64,000 nt of DNA, from positions 248,001 through 312,000 of the forward strand of contig NZ_SNWA01000001.1 of NCBI RefSeq assembly GCF_004361815.1, in the 5' to 3' direction. Shown in pieces: positions 15,071-25,567 of this stretch. The position numbers and the translations under genes were made by a program. Each line of letters opens with the position of its first letter. Position 1 is the first letter of the stretch. Origin of the DNA: Paraburkholderia sp. BL10I2N1. GTDB taxonomy: Bacteria > Pseudomonadota > Gammaproteobacteria > Burkholderiales > Burkholderiaceae. The notes under the pieces are model-generated. The model searched no databases, had not been told where the DNA came from, and saw only the letters and a list, made by a program, of their open reading frames with translations.

Positions 15071-16243
15071 TCACTCCACGATCTCGAACTGGTCGAGGAA
15101 CTCGGTCTTCAGCGTGAGGCCGAGACCCGGCACGTCGTCGCGCAACTGCAGGTAGCCGTTCTCGGCGACCGGCTCGCCGTCGAAGATGTAGTAGAACAGC
15201 TCGTTGCCGACCTCGACGTCGAACATCGGGAAGTACTCGCTCATCGGCGACGCGAGCGTGCTCATCGTCAGATGATAGTTGTGCATCTGGCCCGCATGCG
15301 GGATCACCGGCACGCTGTACGCTTCGCACAGCGCGTTGATCTTGTGCGCCATCGTGATGCCGCCGACGCGGTTCGTGTCGTACTGGACCACCGACACCGC
15401 CTTGCGGTCGAGCAGCTGCTTGAAGCCGTACAGCGTGAACTCGTGCTCGCCGCCCGAGATCGGGATGCTCGTCAGCTGGTTCAGCTCCGCGTAGCCGTCC
15501 ATGTCGTCGGCGATCACTGGCTCTTCCAGCCAGCGCGGCTGATACTTCTCGAGCTTCGGCAGAATCCGCTTCGCATACTCGAGGTTCCAGCCCATGTAGC
15601 ACTCGAGCATCAGGTCGTTGTCGTAGCCGATCACTTCACGGACCGCGGCGACCGACTTCAGGTTCTCGACGACGCCCTGCTGCCCGTGCGCGGGCCCGTA
15701 GCCGAAGCGCATCTTGAATGCTCGGAAGCCCTGGTCGAGGAATTTCTGCGCCTCGGCCTGCATTTCCTTGAGGTCGGTGCGATAGAGCTTCGAGTAGTAG
15801 CACGGAATCTTCTCCTTCGTGCGGCCGCCGAGCAGCTTGAAGACCGGCTTGCCAACGCTCTTGCCGAGGATGTCCCAGATCGCGATGTCGACGCCCGAGA
15901 TCGCGGCCATCCCGATCCCCTTGCGCCCCCATGCGTGCGTCGCGCGGTACATCCGCTGGTTCAGGTACTCGTAGTCCCACGGGTCCTGGCCGATCACGAG
16001 CGGCGCGAGGTACTGGTCGATGATCACCTTCGCGACCTGCGGCGCGAGCGCGACGTTGCCGTAGCCGACAGTCCCGTCGTCGGTCTCGACTTCGATGACC
16101 GTCCACGAATGGAAGCGGAACGTGCTCATCGTTTCCTGCGGCGCGTACAGCAGGTCCATCGCATTCGCGCAGAAATTGCCCTGCGGCGGCACGGTCTTGC
16201 CCTTCCATTGGAATACGCGGGCGCGGACGGACTTGATCTTCAT
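15071..16243 (-). CDS. Enolase-superfamily sugar-acid dehydratase, L-rhamnonate dehydratase-like
   Basis: Mandelate-racemase-group dehydratase of 390 residues that removes water from an aldonate to give a 2-keto-3-deoxy acid. Seen: the capping domain, [10 protein letters not shown], metal-ligand stretches LECYMGW, WLEEPV and SGGEHEFT, and the general-base histidine in [12 protein letters not shown]. The [12 protein letters not shown] and SEYFPMF features resemble the rhamnonate dehydratase subgroup, but the substrate is not proven. AGGAG lies 8 bases before the ATG. Second structural gene of the operon. Confidence 0.88.
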
Positions 16244-16309
16244 TGCGGTGTCTCCTGAGATTCGATGTGTTTTGATGTGTCGTGAAGCGCGCGAGCGGCC
16301 GGGCGACCG

Positions 16310-17356
16310 TTACGCGGAAATCGTCTGCTGCCGGCGCGCGGCGCCCATCCGGCAGGCGATCTGCAAGGCCTGCCAGGTCGCGCCGACGTCGGCGGTGCCG
16401 CGGCCCGCGATGTCATACGCAGTGCCGTGCGCGGGCGTCGTGATCGGCACGGGCAGCCCGCCCTGCACGGTCACGCCGCGCGAGAAACCGAGCAGCTTGA
16501 TCGCGATCTGCCCCTGGTCGTGGTACATCGTGACGATCGCCTGGTAATCGCCGGCCTGCGCCTTCAGGAAGATCGTGTCGGCGGGGAACGGGCCGTGGAA
16601 CGGCGCGTCGGTCGGCCAGTCGCGCGCCTGCAGCTTCGTCACCGCGGGCTCGATGATGTCGATCTCTTCGCGGCCGCAGCTGCCGCCGTCGCCGCCGTGC
16701 GGATTGAACGCGGCGATCGCGATCTTTGGCGCCGCGATGCCGTTCGCGAGCAGCGACCGGTAGATCAACTCCGAAGCCTGCTCGATCCGCTCGACGCTCA
16801 GGTAGCCCGGCGCGTCCTTCAGTGGCACGTGCGACGAGATGCGCGACGTCCACAGCTCGCCGAGGGTGTTGAATTCGCAGAAGTAGCCGGTCACGCCGAG
16901 GTATTCGGCGAAGTGGTGGAGCTCGTCCTCGTGCTTCAGGCCGCCGAGCTTCATCGCGTGCTTGTTCAGCGGCGCGAAGCAGATCGCGTCGACCTCGCCG
17001 GCGAGCGTGGCGTCCATGCACAGGTTCAGCACGGTCAGCACCGAGTGGCCGCCGGCCGCGCAGACCTCGCCGACCTTCACTTGTGCCGGGTCGATCGTGT
17101 CGACTTCGACGAACGCGGGACGCGCGATCGACGGCCGGTTGCGCGCGGCGGCGAGCGACGCGATCGGCTCGACGTCGACTTGCACGCCGGCGACGCGCTG
17201 GCCGGCTTCCCACAGCCAGCGGTCGCCGATCAGCACCAGGTTCGCGCGGGACGTCGCGTCGGGGCGCGCGAGCAGCTTCGCGATCAGCTCGGCACCGATG
17301 CCAGCGGGATCGCCGAGCGTCAGCGCGACGACGGGCAAGGTCGACGGGGCCGTCAT
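16310..17356 (-). CDS. PdxA-family dehydrogenase (4-hydroxythreonine-4-phosphate dehydrogenase-like, PdxA2 type)
   Basis: NAD-dependent dehydrogenase of 348 residues from the PdxA family. Family marks are LTLGDPAGIGAELIAK at the N-terminus, ICFAPLNKHAMKLGG, AAFNPHGGDGG, ADTIFLKA and VTMYHDQGQIAIKLLGF. The catabolic setting suggests the PdxA2 branch, which acts on sugar-acid intermediates, rather than vitamin B6 synthesis (inference). First structural gene of the operon. Its ATG overlaps the TGA of an 18-codon leader ORF, with GGAG 7 bases upstream. Confidence 0.9.
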   Translation of the reverse strand: MTAPSTLPVVALTLGDPAGIGAELIAKLLARPDATSRANLVLIGDRWLWEAGQRVAGVQVDVEPIASLAAARNRPSIARPAFVEVDTIDPAQVKVGEVCAAGGHSVLTVLNLCMDATLAGEVDAICFAPLNKHAMKLGGLKHEDELHHFAEYLGVTGYFCEFNTLGELWTSRISSHVPLKDAPGYLSVERIEQASELIYRSLLANGIAAPKIAIAAFNPHGGDGGSCGREEIDIIEPAVTKLQARDWPTDAPFHGPFPADTIFLKAQAGDYQAIVTMYHDQGQIAIKLLGFSRGVTVQGGLPVPITTPAHGTAYDIAGRGTADVGATWQALQIACRMGAARRQQTISA

Positions 17357-17409
17357 GCCGGTTCTCCTGCGGGCGCCGCGCGGTGCGCGACCGTTGAATT
17401 CGTCTGCAT
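17353..17409 (-). CDS. 18-residue leader ORF coupled to the pdxA-like gene
   Basis: On the minus strand a GGAG sits 7 bases before an ATG at 17409. This opens an 18-codon frame (MQTNSTVAHRAAPAGEPA) whose TGA overlaps the ATG of the pdxA-like gene (ATGA). The pdxA ribosome site lies inside the leader. It looks like a translationally coupled upstream ORF that could tune expression of the whole operon. No homologue is known to me; the alternative is chance. Confidence 0.5.
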   Translation of the reverse strand: MQTNSTVAHRAAPAGEPA

Positions 17410-17528
17410 AATGTGTCTCCGTTTTCGCCGGAATCCGGCTGTTCCTGATATGGGGTTCATGCTAGGTAGACGGACCCCGCCCGTAAATTGAAAACTCTTG
17501 ATGAATCGATAACCTGAGGTAATCAAAT
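17410..17528. promoter_or_regulatory. Divergent promoter region of sugar-acid operon and its LysR gene
   Basis: A 119-base gap between the leader ORF and the LysR gene. It has an AT-richer patch with dyad-like sequence (TTGAAAACTCTTGATGAATC, near 17488-17507), the usual place for a LysR binding site. GAGGT lies about 9 bases before the LysR ATG. Assignment as operator rests on context. Confidence 0.55.
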
Positions 17529-18506
17529 ATGGGCTCGATCGACAAACGCGACTCGACGCCGCAGCTGCTGAACCGGCTGCGGATGCGTCAGATCGCGCTG
17601 TTGCTCGCAGTCGACGAATGCTCGACGCTGCACGCGGCGGCCGACCGGCTCGGCCTCACGCAGCCGGCCGCGACAAAGATGCTGCACGAACTCGAGAACG
17701 CGCTCGGTCAGCGGCTGTTCGATCGCGTCGGGCGCGGCCTCGTGTTGAATCCGGCCGGCGAGCGCGTGCTCGGCTACTTTCGCGGGATCCGGGGCAGCAT
17801 GGAGGCGCTGAACCGCGAGCTCGCGGAGCTGCAGCTCGGCAGCGCCGGGCGGCTCGCGATCGGCAGCATCATGGCCGCGTCGCCGGGGCGGCTCACCGAG
17901 GCGCTCGTGCAGCTGAAGGCGCGCTATCCGCTGCTCGCGATCGACATCGCGGTCGACACCAGCGACCGGCTGATGCCGCAATTGCAGGAAGGCGTGCTCG
18001 AGGTCGTGATCGGCCGCGACGCCGGCAGCGACTGCGTGTTCCGCGCGGTCGACGACGAGGCGCTCGCGGTCGTCTCCGGCCGCAACCATCCGCTCGCGGG
18101 CGCGGGGCCGGTCGGGTTCGACGCGCTGCTCGAGTATCCGTGGATCCTGCAGCCGGGCGGCAGCCCGGCGCGCGAGGTCATCGAGGGCGAGTTCCGGATG
18201 CATCACGAGCCGATGCCGCGCGGGCTGATCGAGACCGGCTCGATGCTGACGACGATGAACCTCGTCGACCGCTCGCAGATGCTCGGCGTGATCCCGCTGA
18301 CGGTCGCGCAGCGCAACGTGGAGCACGGGCTCGTCGCGATCGTCGACTACACGCTTGCGCAGAAGCTGCCGTCGTACGGCAGCCTCGTCCGGCGCGACCG
18401 GCCGCTCAGCATCCCCGCGCGGCAGTTCCTCACGCTGTTCCATCACGAGGACGACGGCGAGCAGCCAGGCGGTCAGTTGTCCGGCGTCGACACCAGCAGC
18501 ACGTAA
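17529..18506 (+). CDS. LysR-family regulator of the sugar-acid operon
   Basis: Regulator of 325 residues. The helix-turn-helix (LHAAADRLGLTQPAATKMLHELE) and the overall pattern (LRMRQIALLLAVDECSTLHAAADRLG) match the GbpR/galactose-binding-protein regulator branch of LysR. The effector domain begins near GRLAIGSIMAASPGRLTEAL. It is transcribed away from the catabolic operon, so it probably responds to a sugar acid or its keto derivative. Its last 30 bases are overlapped by an opposing ORF fragment. Confidence 0.93.
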   Translation: MGSIDKRDSTPQLLNRLRMRQIALLLAVDECSTLHAAADRLGLTQPAATKMLHELENALGQRLFDRVGRGLVLNPAGERVLGYFRGIRGSMEALNRELAELQLGSAGRLAIGSIMAASPGRLTEALVQLKARYPLLAIDIAVDTSDRLMPQLQEGVLEVVIGRDAGSDCVFRAVDDEALAVVSGRNHPLAGAGPVGFDALLEYPWILQPGGSPAREVIEGEFRMHHEPMPRGLIETGSMLTTMNLVDRSQMLGVIPLTVAQRNVEHGLVAIVDYTLAQKLPSYGSLVRRDRPLSIPARQFLTLFHHEDDGEQPGGQLSGVDTSST

Positions 18507-18749
18507 GCCGGCACGTCGGTCGTGCCGGCCAGCGGATGCACGACCGTCGCCTGCACCGACAGCGCGGCGGCGATGTCCGGCGCGCTGTCGATCGTCCCCG
18601 TGCGCGTGATCGTCACCAGGCGCGTGGGGCAGCGCAGCGTCTCGCGATACAGCGCTCCGTACCACAGCGGCCCCGTGCGGTGCGCGTCCTCGAGCACGTC
18701 AGACGCCGCGCGCCATTGCAGCGGCAGGAACTCCTCGCGATCGCATATG
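18473..18749 (-). pseudogene. 3' fragment of an unrecognised gene
   Basis: A minus-strand open frame reads DREEFLPLQWRAASDVLED, then LWYGALYRETLRCPTRLVTI and VVHPLAGTTDVPAYVLLVS, ending at 18473. The composition is protein-like and the end looks like a natural C-terminus, but there is no start: to the right it runs straight into a plus-strand dehydrogenase fragment. I do not recognise the family. It overlaps the end of the LysR gene tail to tail. Confidence 0.45.
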
Positions 18750-18755
18750 GGGTCG

Positions 18756-18860
18756 GTCGCGAGCCTGAAGACGATGGCCGAGCAGATCGCGGAGAACGCG
18801 CGAAGGCTCGTGAAAGGCGAGCCGCTGCTGAACGTCGTCGACGTCGGTCGCGGTTACTGA
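18756..18860 (+). pseudogene. C-terminal scrap of a D-2-hydroxyacid dehydrogenase
   Basis: Thirty-four codons (LKTMAEQIAENARRL, then GEPLLNVVDVGRGY) match the last helix and tail of NAD-dependent D-2-hydroxyacid dehydrogenases, ending in a TGA. The rest of the gene is absent, so it is a deletion remnant beside the IS3 scar. Confidence 0.6.
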
Positions 18861-18936
18861 GTGCCGTTGCGACGATTGATCCGCACCTCGGCGCAATGCC
18901 GATCGATAACATACGGATATCGATATATCGCGTAAT

Positions 18937-19712
18937 GAGATCGCTCAGAAATACGGGGTTCACCCGGTTATGGTTGGGCAGTGGAAGAAGGAGATTGTGG
19001 AGCGTGCAGCGGCGCTGTTTGAAGTGAAGCGTGGACCGAAGCCGGTGGACGATCAAAACGCGCCGGAGCGGCTGTACGGCGAGATTGGAAAGCTGAAGAT
19101 GGAAGTGGACTGGCTCAAAAAAAAGTTGTCGCAGTGAGCCGGCAGCTACCTGCCAGCTGTGACCAGTATCACCGAATGCGGGACAGGCTACCTATACCGC
19201 AAGGTGCTGTCCGGGCGCATCAGCAACAGCATGGACGCCGGGTTCTGCGTCGACTGCCTGGAAGAGGCGTTGAGCCAGTACGGCAGGCCGGAGATCTTCA
19301 ACAGCGACCAGGGTTCGCAGTTCACCAGCGACGCGTTCACCGGGGTGCTCAAGGGTGCCGGTGTGGCGATCAGCATGGACGGTCGGGGCCGGGCGCTGGA
19401 CAATATTTTCGTTGAACGCCTGTGGCGCAACGTCAAGCATGAGGATGTCTATCTGAAGGGCTATGCGACGATGGGCGAACTGACGGTGGGGCTGGCGCAG
19501 TACTTTGCCTACTATAACGGCGAGCGGCCTCATCAGTCGCTCGGATACCAGACCCCAGCCGCGGTCTATCCGAGTGGCTGCGGTGGTGGGGCCAGGATTG
19601 TCGACAGGTTCAGCGGGGCGCTGGCGGAACCGGGGCAGCGCTGTTCAGCTGCGTGTGGTATCGATGCAGCTTAAATTGCGGTCCACTCTGTCTTGACACT
19701 GGGGTCCACTTT
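18937..19712 (+). mobile_element. IS3-family insertion sequence remnant
   Basis: Contains the 3' two-thirds of orfA (EIAQKYGVHPVMVGQWKKEI ... LKMEVDWLKKKLSQ, stop at 19135-19137) and the C-terminal part of the orfB transposase (from about 19159). Catalytic Asp is seen in NSDQGSQFTS and Glu in FVERLWRNVKHED, ending in HQSLGYQTPAAVY. The 5' IS end, the orfA start and roughly the first half of orfB are missing, so it cannot move by itself. The right end is near 19712 (TGTCTTGACACTGGGGTCCA inside it) and interrupts the neighbouring receiver-domain gene. Confidence 0.88.
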
Positions 19713-19926
19713 ATCTGCCGCCAGCATCCAGGTCCATCGTCACCAGCTTCCTGACCACGACCATTGCAGTGTCCTCACCGCCCAGGTCGTGATCGAAGGA
19801 AATTTCGAACGGACAGCCGCGAGCTTCGAGAAGCGTAGTGGCCTCGAGGGACGTACGTGCGATTACCCAATCGGATGCGACGGGGTCACGGATGTCATCG
19901 ATAAACAAGCGGTATCGGGCTTCCAT
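19711..19926 (-). pseudogene. Predicted cyclic-phosphate processing receiver-domain protein, 3' end truncated by IS
   Basis: Seventy-one codons with YRLFIDDIRDP, WVIARTSLEATTLLE and ISFDHDLGGEDTAM, recalling the small stand-alone receiver-like (cREC) domains linked to RNA or nucleotide processing. The frame breaks at LDLDAGGR, where family members normally continue about 25 residues more, and the stop codon lies in the IS3 end. The ATG lies inside the end of the upstream PLD-like gene (32-base overlap), so the two were translated together. Family assignment is from memory of motifs. Confidence 0.6.
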
Positions 19927-20416
19927 TTTTACCGATCCTCAGAGCCTGGTCACGGCGACATCTGCGGTCTAAATGCGCCAGATACGCTGCGAGCTGCCGG
20001 TGCTGAGGATCTCCCTTGATGCCACCAACAACGTAAGACAGCTCCTCATTCGACGTAAGCGCAGCCTTCGTGATGTTAGCTGACCCCACAATTGCAGAAT
20101 ACCGGTCGCCCGCCTCGAAGTAGTACAGCTTCGTGTGGAGATACGAGCGACTGTGATCCACGACGATGTGCTCGACACCGAGCGTGGCCAGCCCATCGGC
20201 GGCGTCCTGTTCTGTGTGCTTGTCGTTGGAGTAAAAGATGACGCGGGCTCCCCGATCTACGGCCTTTTTCAGTTCATCCGCAATCGCTTTGATCCCGCCG
20301 AATTTCAGATGACCAGAGCACATCGAGATGATGTGTGCGTCGACCAACCCTTTCCTGATAGCTGCAAGATGACCGTGCTCGCCCGTCTTAGATTGATTCC
20401 AGATGAAAGTCGACAT
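19895..20416 (-). CDS. Phospholipase D-like (single HKD) protein
   Basis: Protein of 173 residues with one HKD-type motif: H94 and K96 in YLHTKLYYF, then GSAN at 111-114. This is typical of single-motif PLD-like nucleases that work as dimers. An N-terminal segment (WNQSKTGEHGHLAAIRKGL) and a nucleotide-fold-like middle (GARVIFYSNDKHTEQDA) precede it. It has no signal peptide. The frame is open to 20515; 20416 is the first start with family-like sequence, though without a strong Shine-Dalgarno. It overlaps the receiver-domain gene. Nuclease or phosphodiesterase activity is inferred. Confidence 0.72.
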   Translation of the reverse strand: MSTFIWNQSKTGEHGHLAAIRKGLVDAHIISMCSGHLKFGGIKAIADELKKAVDRGARVIFYSNDKHTEQDAADGLATLGVEHIVVDHSRSYLHTKLYYFEAGDRYSAIVGSANITKAALTSNEELSYVVGGIKGDPQHRQLAAYLAHLDRRCRRDQALRIGKNGSPIPLVYR

Positions 20417-20827
20417 GGGTTGAATATTGTTTGTTAGCAAGGGCCTGCCCTGAAGCGAGGTTTCGGGCAGAAACCGGCCGTATCGCTGGCGATCTGAGCT
20501 GCGCGTTGGCGCCACCTAAGGAAATCGAACGATTGTAAACCTTGCGACAACGTCGGGTGGACCTTTCGTGCCTACGGCAGCCATGCGCCAAAAAGCAGAC
20601 GCACGTCGACCCAAGAGAGCTGCTGGCCGGTCTGGAAGGCATTGCGGTAACTTCTTACCCTGTACGTGACGGCAGCACTTTTCCGTTTCGGCCCTCGCGG
20701 GCCGATCTTTCTCCTGGGTGGACGCAGTGTGCGGGATATCCCGATTTTTGCTGCGGCGCAAGGTGCAGACTTAAGTGAACAAAGTTCAAAGTAAGTGAAT
20801 CTCGACATGAACCGACGCGCGGCTCGT
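20417..20827. other. Intergenic region
   Basis: About 410 bases between the PLD-like gene and the toxin-antitoxin promoter. No supported ORF. It includes a diverged stretch similar to other dispersed intergenic elements (TGGCCGGTCTGGAAGGCATT, near 20623-20642). Confidence 0.4.
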
Positions 20828-20920: not shown

Positions 20921-21448
20921 ATGACGGCAGAAGCAGTGGCAGGACGGCAGCATTCGCGACGTGCGAAGCCTAGCGCTTCGGCGGCAAAATCTGCAGCGGC
21001 CTCCAGGCTCGCTCACATAGGCACCAATGGGCTCGGCGCTCAGGAAGACGATTTGACGTTCTTTCTCGGTCTCGCCCCTACCGAACAGTCACGCCTGATT
21101 CGAGATGGCATGGAGGCGGTAATCGTCAGCCGAATCGCCACCGAACTGCTGGCAATTCCGGTGCAAACCCTGCTCGCCAGTCTGCGCCTTCCCAGCAGCA
21201 CTATCAACCGCAAGATTGCGCAGGGAGAGCGGCTCAGTGCGGGAGAATCGGACCGTGCAGCTCGTACGATGCTGATTTACGCTCAGGCCAAGGATGTTCT
21301 CGAAGACGGCCGTCTGGCCGCTGAATGGCTGCTGCGTCCGAATGTTGAACTGGGCGGCGAACGGCCGCTGGACACGCTGGATACGCAAACGGGGTTTGAC
21401 CGCGTGCGTGACATTCTGGTGCGTCTCGAACACGGCGTGACCGTATGA
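20921..21448 (+). CDS. Type II antitoxin, Xre/MbcA/ParS (DUF2384) family
   Basis: Antitoxin of 175 residues. The C-terminal DUF2384-type domain is recognisable (MLIYAQAKDVLEDGRLAAEWLLRPN, LGGERPLDTLDTQTGFDRVRDILVRLEHG), with a central helical region (LLASLRLPSSTINRKIAQGERLS). It should neutralise the RES toxin and repress the operon through the repeats upstream. Start 20921 has GGGAG 6-7 bases before it; the longer frame to 20795 runs through the promoter and is rejected. The stop overlaps the toxin ATG (ATGA). Confidence 0.9.
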   Translation: MTAEAVAGRQHSRRAKPSASAAKSAAASRLAHIGTNGLGAQEDDLTFFLGLAPTEQSRLIRDGMEAVIVSRIATELLAIPVQTLLASLRLPSSTINRKIAQGERLSAGESDRAARTMLIYAQAKDVLEDGRLAAEWLLRPNVELGGERPLDTLDTQTGFDRVRDILVRLEHGVTV

Positions 21449-21915
21449 AGGTGTTTCGTCTTGCCAAAGAGAAGCCCGGAAAATACCGGGCCGATGATCT
21501 GAGCGGCAACGGTGCGGCGCTGGCAGGCGGCCGCTGGAATCCGCGGGGAATGCCGGTGCTTTATACGTGCTGCCACGCGTCGACGGCGGTCCTTGAGGCG
21601 CGTGTCCATGCGTCAGGATTGCTGCCGGTGGCCAACTTTTATCTGGTCACACTGGAAGTGCCGGACAGGGCTGCATCGAGCGCCTACGTGCCGGACCTGC
21701 CCGAGGACTGGAACGTGCTGGATCGCGATCCAGCGTCGACCGTGGACCTCGCGCGGCAGTGGCTCGAAGCCGGGAAACGGCTCGCGATGCGAGTGCCATC
21801 TGTTGTTTGCCCGAGTGACGACAACCTGATTCTTAATCCGTTGCATCCGGGCATGAAGCACGTAGTAGTACTGCACAAGCAGCGCTTCGAGCTGGACCGG
21901 CGGCTTTTCAAATAA
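21445..21915 (+). CDS. RES-domain toxin
   Basis: Toxin of 156 residues in the RES family, whose studied members degrade or ADP-ribosylate NAD+-linked targets and halt growth. The conserved polar set is present: arginine in GGRWN (R30), Tyr40, Glu51 in TAVLEARVH, and the C-terminal NPLHPGMKHV with its asparagine. It looks intact and is coupled to the antitoxin by a 4-base overlap, so a working system is likely. Confidence 0.92.
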   Translation: MKVFRLAKEKPGKYRADDLSGNGAALAGGRWNPRGMPVLYTCCHASTAVLEARVHASGLLPVANFYLVTLEVPDRAASSAYVPDLPEDWNVLDRDPASTVDLARQWLEAGKRLAMRVPSVVCPSDDNLILNPLHPGMKHVVVLHKQRFELDRRLFK

Positions 21916-25108: not shown

Positions 25109-25567
25109 TCACGGTAGTGATCCGCGGATCGTCTTCGGTGGATAGCTCGCCAGCACGACAGCGGTGGTCACCGGGCCAAATCTCGCCAACGTGTCGATTG
25201 CAACTTCGAGTTGCGTCATGTCTTCGACCACGATGCGCACCATGAAGCAGTCTTCGCCAGTTATTCGATGCGCCTCGACTATTTCCGGCATTGCTTCGAA
25301 GGCGCACAGGCATTGCTTGATCTGAGCATGAGTGGTCCGGATCCGAAGGATGGCTGCAATGCCACGGCCCACGAGACCGGGATTGATCCGCGCCGCGTAA
25401 CCTTCAATGACGCCTTGTTCCTCCAGTCGTTTGATACGGGCGGTGACGGCCGGCTGTGAAAGTCCGATCTGCTTGCCAAGCTCGGTGTTGCTGATGCGCG
25501 CATTGCTCTGAAGAGCCTCCAGTATCCGCCAGTCCAGCCGGTCTAAAGTTGCTTGCTTAGTTTTCAT
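25109..25567 (-). CDS. Lrp/AsnC-family transcriptional regulator
   Basis: DNA-binding regulator of 152 residues. The N-terminal helix-turn-helix (LDWRILEALQSNARISNTEL, GLSQPAVTARIKRLEEQGVI) is followed by the RAM effector-binding domain (ILRIRTTHAQIKQCLCAFEA, ITGEDCFMVRIVVEDMTQLE). It is divergent from an RBBP9-type hydrolase 124 bases away, which it may control. Confidence 0.93.
   Translation of the reverse strand: MKTKQATLDRLDWRILEALQSNARISNTELGKQIGLSQPAVTARIKRLEEQGVIEGYAARINPGLVGRGIAAILRIRTTHAQIKQCLCAFEAMPEIVEAHRITGEDCFMVRIVVEDMTQLEVAIDTLARFGPVTTAVVLASYPPKTIRGSLP

Follow-up and report, generated by a model that had tools for sequence, protein, structure and literature searches.

A putative mobile nucleic-acid-processing module pairing a PLD-superfamily protein with a cyclic-phosphate receiver in Paraburkholderia and related genera

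In the 64,000-nucleotide stretch of Paraburkholderia sp. BL10I2N1 analysed here (contig NZ_SNWA01000001.1, positions 248,001 to 312,000, called the window below), the gene for a small protein of the phospholipase D (PLD) superfamily overlaps that for a cyclic-phosphate processing receiver (cREC, printed as cRec in the literature), and the same order of genes, PLD followed by cREC, is found in 11 out of 11 close loci, spread over nine genomes that belong to Paraburkholderia, Caballeronia and Burkholderia sp. E7m39. We tentatively favour the reading that the pair forms a small, horizontally mobile two-gene module for processing nucleic acids, in which the PLD protein would cut and the cREC protein would treat the phosphate ends. 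This reading is drawn from the pairing in relatives, the nuclease partners of other cREC genes, the dN/dS values of the two genes, an RNA-repair operon of a phage and the published contexts of cRec. Speaking against it are the description of the cREC domain in print as uncharacterised (PMC9503650), PLD relatives that lack cREC, the majority of cREC genes, which do not follow a PLD gene, and structural matches to FAM83-type proteins. The window locus carries lesser weight in the argument, because its own cREC gene is broken.

The two genes and the insertion that truncates one of them

The PLD gene lies on the reverse strand at 19895..20416 and encodes a protein of 173 aa with a single HKD motif, in agreement with the original prediction. 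It matches PLDc_2 (PF13091) with an E value of 1.6e-8 and 34.9 bits, above the curated Pfam cut-off of 27, while its match to the NgoFVII PLD domain (PF09565) lies right at the cut-off. The motif reads HxKx4E...GSAN...E, the Asp of HKD being replaced by Glu, and its residues H94, K96, S112, N114 and E125 are the same in all 18 sequences of the alignment. The AlphaFold2 model (pLDDT 86) has SauUSI, BfiI, a phospholipase D and Zucchini as top Foldseek matches. BfiI, the PLD domain of SauUSI, NucT and Zucchini, all among the top matches, share with the window protein both the fold and the catalytic H, K, N and E; the window protein differs from these single-HKD nucleases in having only 12-19% identity in the Foldseek rows, in standing alone without DNA-recognition or helicase domains, and in carrying HxKx4E in place of HxKx4D. 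In BfiI, NucT and Zucchini, dimerisation completes the active site. By analogy with these enzymes, the window protein is predicted to be a dimeric, metal-independent nuclease, that is, a phosphodiesterase that would cut DNA or RNA once two subunits have jointly completed the active site. Human PLD folds of the FAM83 type, which are not known to be enzymes, appear at ranks 14-15 of the same Foldseek matches. The best PADLOC match is the DISARM model DrmC (E 1.6e-11), with which the protein has the PLD domain in common; it scores only 28.9 bits against the NCBIfam equivalog cut-off of 133 for DrmC, and no other DISARM gene was detected among the window neighbours scanned.

The cREC gene, also on the reverse strand (19711..19926), is reduced to 71 residues, compared with 105-113 in its relatives. 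It matches PF20274 with an E value of 2.5e-14 and 54.2 bits (cut-off 27), the match covering only 1-60 of the 88 positions in the profile, whereas the intact protein of P. sediminicola reaches 73.8 bits over positions 1-87. According to our alignment A2 and the secondary structure of the intact homologue, the missing part contains the conserved P74, H82 and N85, which P. sediminicola and C. concitans retain, as well as the final strand and helix. A scan of the window with the cREC profile found no further piece of the gene. Neither the window fragment (E up to 0.1) nor the intact homologue (E up to 0.001) matches the canonical receiver profile PF00072, PF20274 being the only family recovered, and searches by sequence among solved structures gave no credible relatives. 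The AlphaFold2 model of the intact homologue (pLDDT 93) nevertheless resembles receivers in its fold: nearly all its top Foldseek matches are receivers, with weak E values (best 3.8e-3) and middling Z scores (up to 8.8). The small protein was originally described as receiver-like, and this is how it appears in the model. In its intact form it agrees with the published cRec also in its family match, in its DD...DHDLG...H(S/T)xN residues and in being a small single domain. That it belongs to a type linked to RNA or nucleotide end processing holds as a published prediction, the passages of the papers concerned proposing that cRec acts on RNA or ADP-ribose ends (PMC7824862, PMC9503650) and one of them calling the domain uncharacterised (PMC9503650). 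The reaction itself we would picture as that of a receiver-fold phosphoesterase, which may act on phosphate ends or on cyclic nucleotides arising from the same event.

The truncation is due to the right end of an insertion sequence (IS) remnant lying on the forward strand (18946..19713), which cuts the cREC gene after residue 71. The remnant contains an integrase core (PF13683, E 2.8e-16; also PF00665) and presumably belongs to the IS3 family. Its end is placed at 19713 by three comparisons: similarity to a fuller copy found in another genome (G865, contig C38) stops there; a separate 38-base stretch of the same genome (contig C17), 87% identical and taken for the IS terminal repeat, ends there too; and DNA homology with P. 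sediminicola, which extends from 19713 to 20600 at 90%, begins at the very base where the IS ends. Relative to the fuller copy, the left end is missing, and so are about 390 bases inside the remnant. GC makes up 67-71% of the DNA to the left of the IS (16000-18499) and 53-63% from 19000 rightwards to 26000, with a step at 18500-19000, so that the two sides of the junction differ in composition as well. At 18747-18860 there is a short gene fragment, which has no Pfam match and looks by eye like the C-terminus of a 2-hydroxyacid dehydrogenase. The loss of the last part of the second gene to an IS remnant is thus confirmed. The term knock-out, which had been applied to the whole copy, fits the cREC gene alone, since the PLD gene retains its reading frame and catalytic residues; the window copy of the module is probably half-broken by the IS end.

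Conservation and decay of the pair

The overlap of 32 bases (19895..19926, reverse strand) noted originally follows from the coordinates of the reading frames, and both its length and the start of cREC are identical in P. sediminicola (L003), C. concitans (L004) and Burkholderia sp. E7m39 (L005). In P. kirstenboschensis (L006) the start region is kept while the PLD gene is frameshifted. A GAGG site stands just before the start in four of these five sequences and differs in E7m39. Among the window and the first three relatives, dS reaches about 1.6 despite the same overlap, and dN/dS lies at 0.16-0.31 for PLD and 0.09-0.22 for cREC (six pairs each), low values from which we conclude that purifying selection acted on both genes.

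Of the family's 398 genomes, 75 are matched by PF20274, with 34 over the cut-off, and 13 by the PLD protein, six of them at more than 100 bits; for this PLD search the eight best candidates were scored in many of the genomes. Five of the six strong matches (in G000, G364, G132, G337 and G357) have cREC directly downstream. The exception is plasmid pBB2 of Cupriavidus necator N-1, with PRTRC genes before the PLD gene and a hypothetical gene after it. This check of neighbours covered PLD matches of at least 40 bits and one weaker match (G337, C7). Profiles of both proteins were then run in six frames over 26 sources, in which two records (L061 and L132) represent a single Cupriavidus locus. The eleven close loci (the window, L003 to L006, L058 to L060, L125, L139 and L140) all have the pair; three of them (L125, L139, L140) were retrieved through their cREC, each being also a PLD match, and a twelfth record, 22B1P (H6/H18), stands outside this set. 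Conversely, cREC follows PLD in none of 14 distinct distant loci, from Pseudomonas, Variovorax, Cupriavidus, Vibrio, two MAGs and eight viral contigs (eight of 15 being scanned), where the PLD relatives lacking cREC show 27-46% identity; one record (L008) offers only 244 bases after its PLD gene. Two protein searches suggest three further candidate pairs (P0004/P0032, P0007/P0038, P0022/P0100). Approached from the cREC side, in 144 genomes of the same genus, five of 17 places with a cREC of the window type have the PLD pair (G000, G364, G793, G810, G812) and 12 do not. The tight coupling that had been proposed therefore recurs among close relatives, and the PLD gene was not found to neighbour cREC only rarely, the outcome that would have spoken against it.

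The integrity of the pair varies. Both genes are intact in five loci (L003, L004, L058, L059, L125) and both damaged in four (L006, L060, L139, L140). PLD is intact and cREC damaged in two, namely the window, through the IS, and E7m39, through a frame change near residue 86 that lies on a draft contig and could be a sequencing error. Decay therefore affects six of the 11 loci, and at no locus is PLD broken while cREC stays intact. The GC content of the pair is 53-57% against 59-62% for the loci, 3-9 points lower in each of the seven compared (the window, L003, L004, L005, L058, L059 and L125), which fits mobility.

Other settings of cREC and PLD relatives

The contexts of cREC were studied at 38 places, each within a stretch of 7-12.5 kb: 37 that score 58 bits or more and lie in genomes other than that of the window, and the second cREC locus of the window genome (L094). 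The latter, a match of 40 positions, and L068, a copy of L067, were dropped, which left 36 loci, none of them the window locus. A same-strand reading frame stands upstream at 24 of them: ten were scanned with Pfam, three are PLD by identity, six are Cys-rich by eye and five are unassigned. Nuclease-like genes occupy this position at nine loci (four PLD, two PDDEXK_4 and one each of GmrSD_N, Mrr_cat and NucS_C, the last just below its cut-off), and a Cys-rich frame of 140-200 aa at seven (one scanned, six by eye). For comparison, 41 genomes contain 304 matches to PLDc_2, 24 to Mrr_cat and one to PDDEXK_4. A rough binomial estimate gives about 1e-12 for seven of 36 loci and about 1e-8 for five origins, figures that assume about 0.95 genes per kb and refer to families picked post hoc in loci related by descent. 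A Chryseobacterium plasmid also carries cREC, a WYL gene and a PD-(D/E)XK nuclease one after another.

On a tree of 52 cREC proteins, built without L060, L006, L139, L140 and short frames, the PLD label requires three changes and its rows lie on both sides of a split supported at 99/98; the PLD-linked cRECs thus fall in two deeply separated subfamilies, in both of which the pairing is kept. The second of these clades includes one copy without PLD (G337, L067). The restriction-type label needs five changes for five rows. These changes indicate that partners were acquired repeatedly, or swapped. At the same time, the rows linked to PLD group together there (none of 500 shuffles gave a value as low). 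Apart from the window genome with its two partial cRECs, a phylum-wide search with PF20274 gave matches above 60 bits in three of 398 genomes; the weaker matches, by eye ordinary receivers in longer frames, were set aside.

A broader possibility, which we consider doubtful, is that cREC constitutes the constant subunit of small nuclease systems with swappable partners (PLD, PD-(D/E)XK, Mrr, GmrSD or NucS-like genes directly upstream), established in several independent origins. If this were true, cREC would process what nucleases leave over or license their activity, amounting to a general arrangement of nuclease plus end processor that is not described in the parts of the papers found. The printed contexts comprise RNA ligases, Nudix, sirtuin, 2H and WYL genes, within RNA repair and ADP-ribose processing (PMC7824862, 2021; PMC9503650, 2022), and the main-text passages of these papers, figures and supplements aside, mention neither a PLD nor a restriction-type nuclease as partner. 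Within the same scope, the words phospholipase and PLD are absent from the text of PMC9503650, while phospholipase occurs once in PMC7824862, in a reference; the text available for PMC7159879 has a single, unrelated mention of a receiver, and our literature search, to the extent of the texts it reached, turned up no PLD-cREC pair in print. That cREC pairs repeatedly with unrelated nucleases suggests a role for it in nucleic-acid conflict or repair beyond the printed contexts of RNA ligases and NAD. A nuclease with an identifiable product beside cREC would, moreover, offer a direct biochemical test of the predicted cREC reaction.

Phages provide a further setting, with 136 records containing cREC by tblastn. 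In Ochrobactrum phage vB_OspM_OC (L133, 2546-4949), a gene matching the phosphatase half of a polynucleotide kinase family is followed by cREC, RNA ligase 1 and a gene matching the kinase half; this cREC is 45% identical in alignment A2 (overall range 45-50%). The operon resembles the bacterial pair in having a cREC relative within overlapping genes, and differs from it in the partners, which are kinase, phosphatase and ligase instead of PLD. In an Erwinia jumbo phage, cREC forms the end of a Nudix gene that comes after a Sir2-like gene. Both phage settings fit the published contexts of cRec. The PLD protein had no match in the phages collection; relatives 37-42% identical occur in six viral contigs, five of which have a candidate large terminase gene downstream, confirmed by Pfam in four (L141, L142, L144, L146) and remaining a candidate in one (L145), all without cREC.

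Two minor observations concern the neighbours of other cREC genes. One cREC clade (L063, L064, L065, L066, L070, L071, L091) has as a steady upstream partner a Cys-rich protein (GRYCGVC...) that may bind zinc, and a protein of 230-280 aa, by eye similar to the uracil-DNA glycosylase (UDG) type, lies directly or one gene downstream of cREC at L063, L066, L078, L080, L081 and L088; of L063, L066 and L081, which were scanned, only L081 gives a Pfam match to UDG, and that below the cut-off.

Candidate functions and the surroundings of the pair

In functional terms, the question is whether the pair serves defence, repair or neither. The original prediction allowed for an effector system in defence or RNA repair, and our evidence supports this in part, without establishing defence. 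A signal-gated effector, with cREC sensing or binding a cyclic nucleotide or ADP-ribose signal and thereby controlling the attack of PLD on phage or cell nucleic acid, would be in keeping with the DrmC match, with the patchy distribution, low GC and frequent decay, which suit mobile defence genes, and with the locus of P. kirstenboschensis (L006, 4992-12457), where the pair is flanked by GajAB (E 2.2e-224 and 4.7e-136) on one side and by a 1079-aa AAA/PRTase-CE protein similar to retron type III-A (E 5.6e-33) on the other. That copy, however, is itself decayed, and apart from the toxin-antitoxin pair of the window no credible PADLOC defence match emerged from 16 further flank proteins (four in the window, three each in L003 and L004, five in L005 and one in L006); the conserved Asp and His of cREC, moreover, suggest catalysis and not mere binding. 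We consider such an effector unlikely. A defence island as the rule was also rejected, given that only P. kirstenboschensis among the five loci listed has recognised defence genes on both sides; P. sediminicola has the selenocysteine genes selA/selB in its flanks, and in C. concitans the flanks include a transporter gene and one of the LysR type. Somewhat less likely still is a counter-defence or end-repair module of plasmids and phages, in which PLD would remove damaged ends and cREC would heal them before ligation. The phage cRECs in the RNA-repair operon and at the end of the Nudix gene agree with such a role, as do the viral-contig PLD relatives before terminase genes, a pair on a P. largidicola plasmid that is preceded at 0.5 kb by a Lar-family restriction alleviation gene, and the flanks of E7m39, which hold genes for Ku, LigD and DNA polymerase III alpha, LigD standing about 2.7 kb from the pair and Ku farther out. 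Yet no ligase or kinase was recognised directly beside the pair in the window, in L003 to L006 (mostly by eye) or in L125, and the PLD genes of phage contigs come without cREC.

A toxin-antitoxin function, with PLD as toxic nuclease and cREC as antitoxin, might be imagined for two small overlapping genes that show signs of mobility and have a toxin-antitoxin pair next door, yet we regard it as rather improbable. It is lowered by the loci that keep PLD intact with a damaged cREC, which are two of 11 (the window and the draft contig of E7m39), the reverse being found in none, and by the window genome having only two cRECs by PF20274, both partial. The toxin-first order is, besides, less common in type II systems, and an antitoxin role of cREC is consequently unlikely. 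Very improbable, in our judgement, is the absence of any functional link, cREC being then a frequent passenger of mobile regions whose adjacency to PLD persists by descent. The confinement of all 11 pairs to genomes of the Paraburkholderia/Caballeronia type and the clustering of PLD-linked rows on the tree would agree with this; the two cREC subfamilies, the overlap kept at dS up to about 1.6 and the repeated nuclease partners of other folds argue against it. The processing of nucleic acids by a PLD nuclease and an end-treating cREC thus remains the reading that we tentatively favour.

Several features around the pairs deserve separate mention. The toxin-antitoxin pair noted originally beside the window genes is confirmed as a RES/Xre system exceeding both NCBIfam cut-offs, with a Xre/ParS-type antitoxin at 20921..21448 (NF049845, 95.6 bits, cut-off 90) and a RES-domain toxin at 21445..21915 (NF049844, 140.9 bits, cut-off 110). 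Both genes are on the forward strand, opposite to PLD, and the two-gene system begins 504 bases from the PLD start. Since no RES or Xre gene was recognised beside the other pairs (partly by eye), we discarded them as part of the PLD-cREC system and consider them chance neighbours. Other neighbours in the window are LysR, EAL and AsnC genes; the AsnC-type regulator (25112-25567) has PADLOC matches to CARF/Csa3 models at the level of the HTH (best E 4.4e-7). On an Arcobacter plasmid (L131, 3995-7000), a large gene annotated as phospholipase D family lies some 0.6 kb downstream of a cREC gene and is read in the opposite direction. The second cREC of the BL10I2N1 genome (G000, C1, 392334-393630; L094, 5935-7231) is also broken: homology stops at residue 40 and does not resume beyond a segment of 1,175 bases, which is bounded by perfect inverted repeats of 38 bases and contains no visible transposase and, by eye, an apparent VapBC toxin-antitoxin pair.
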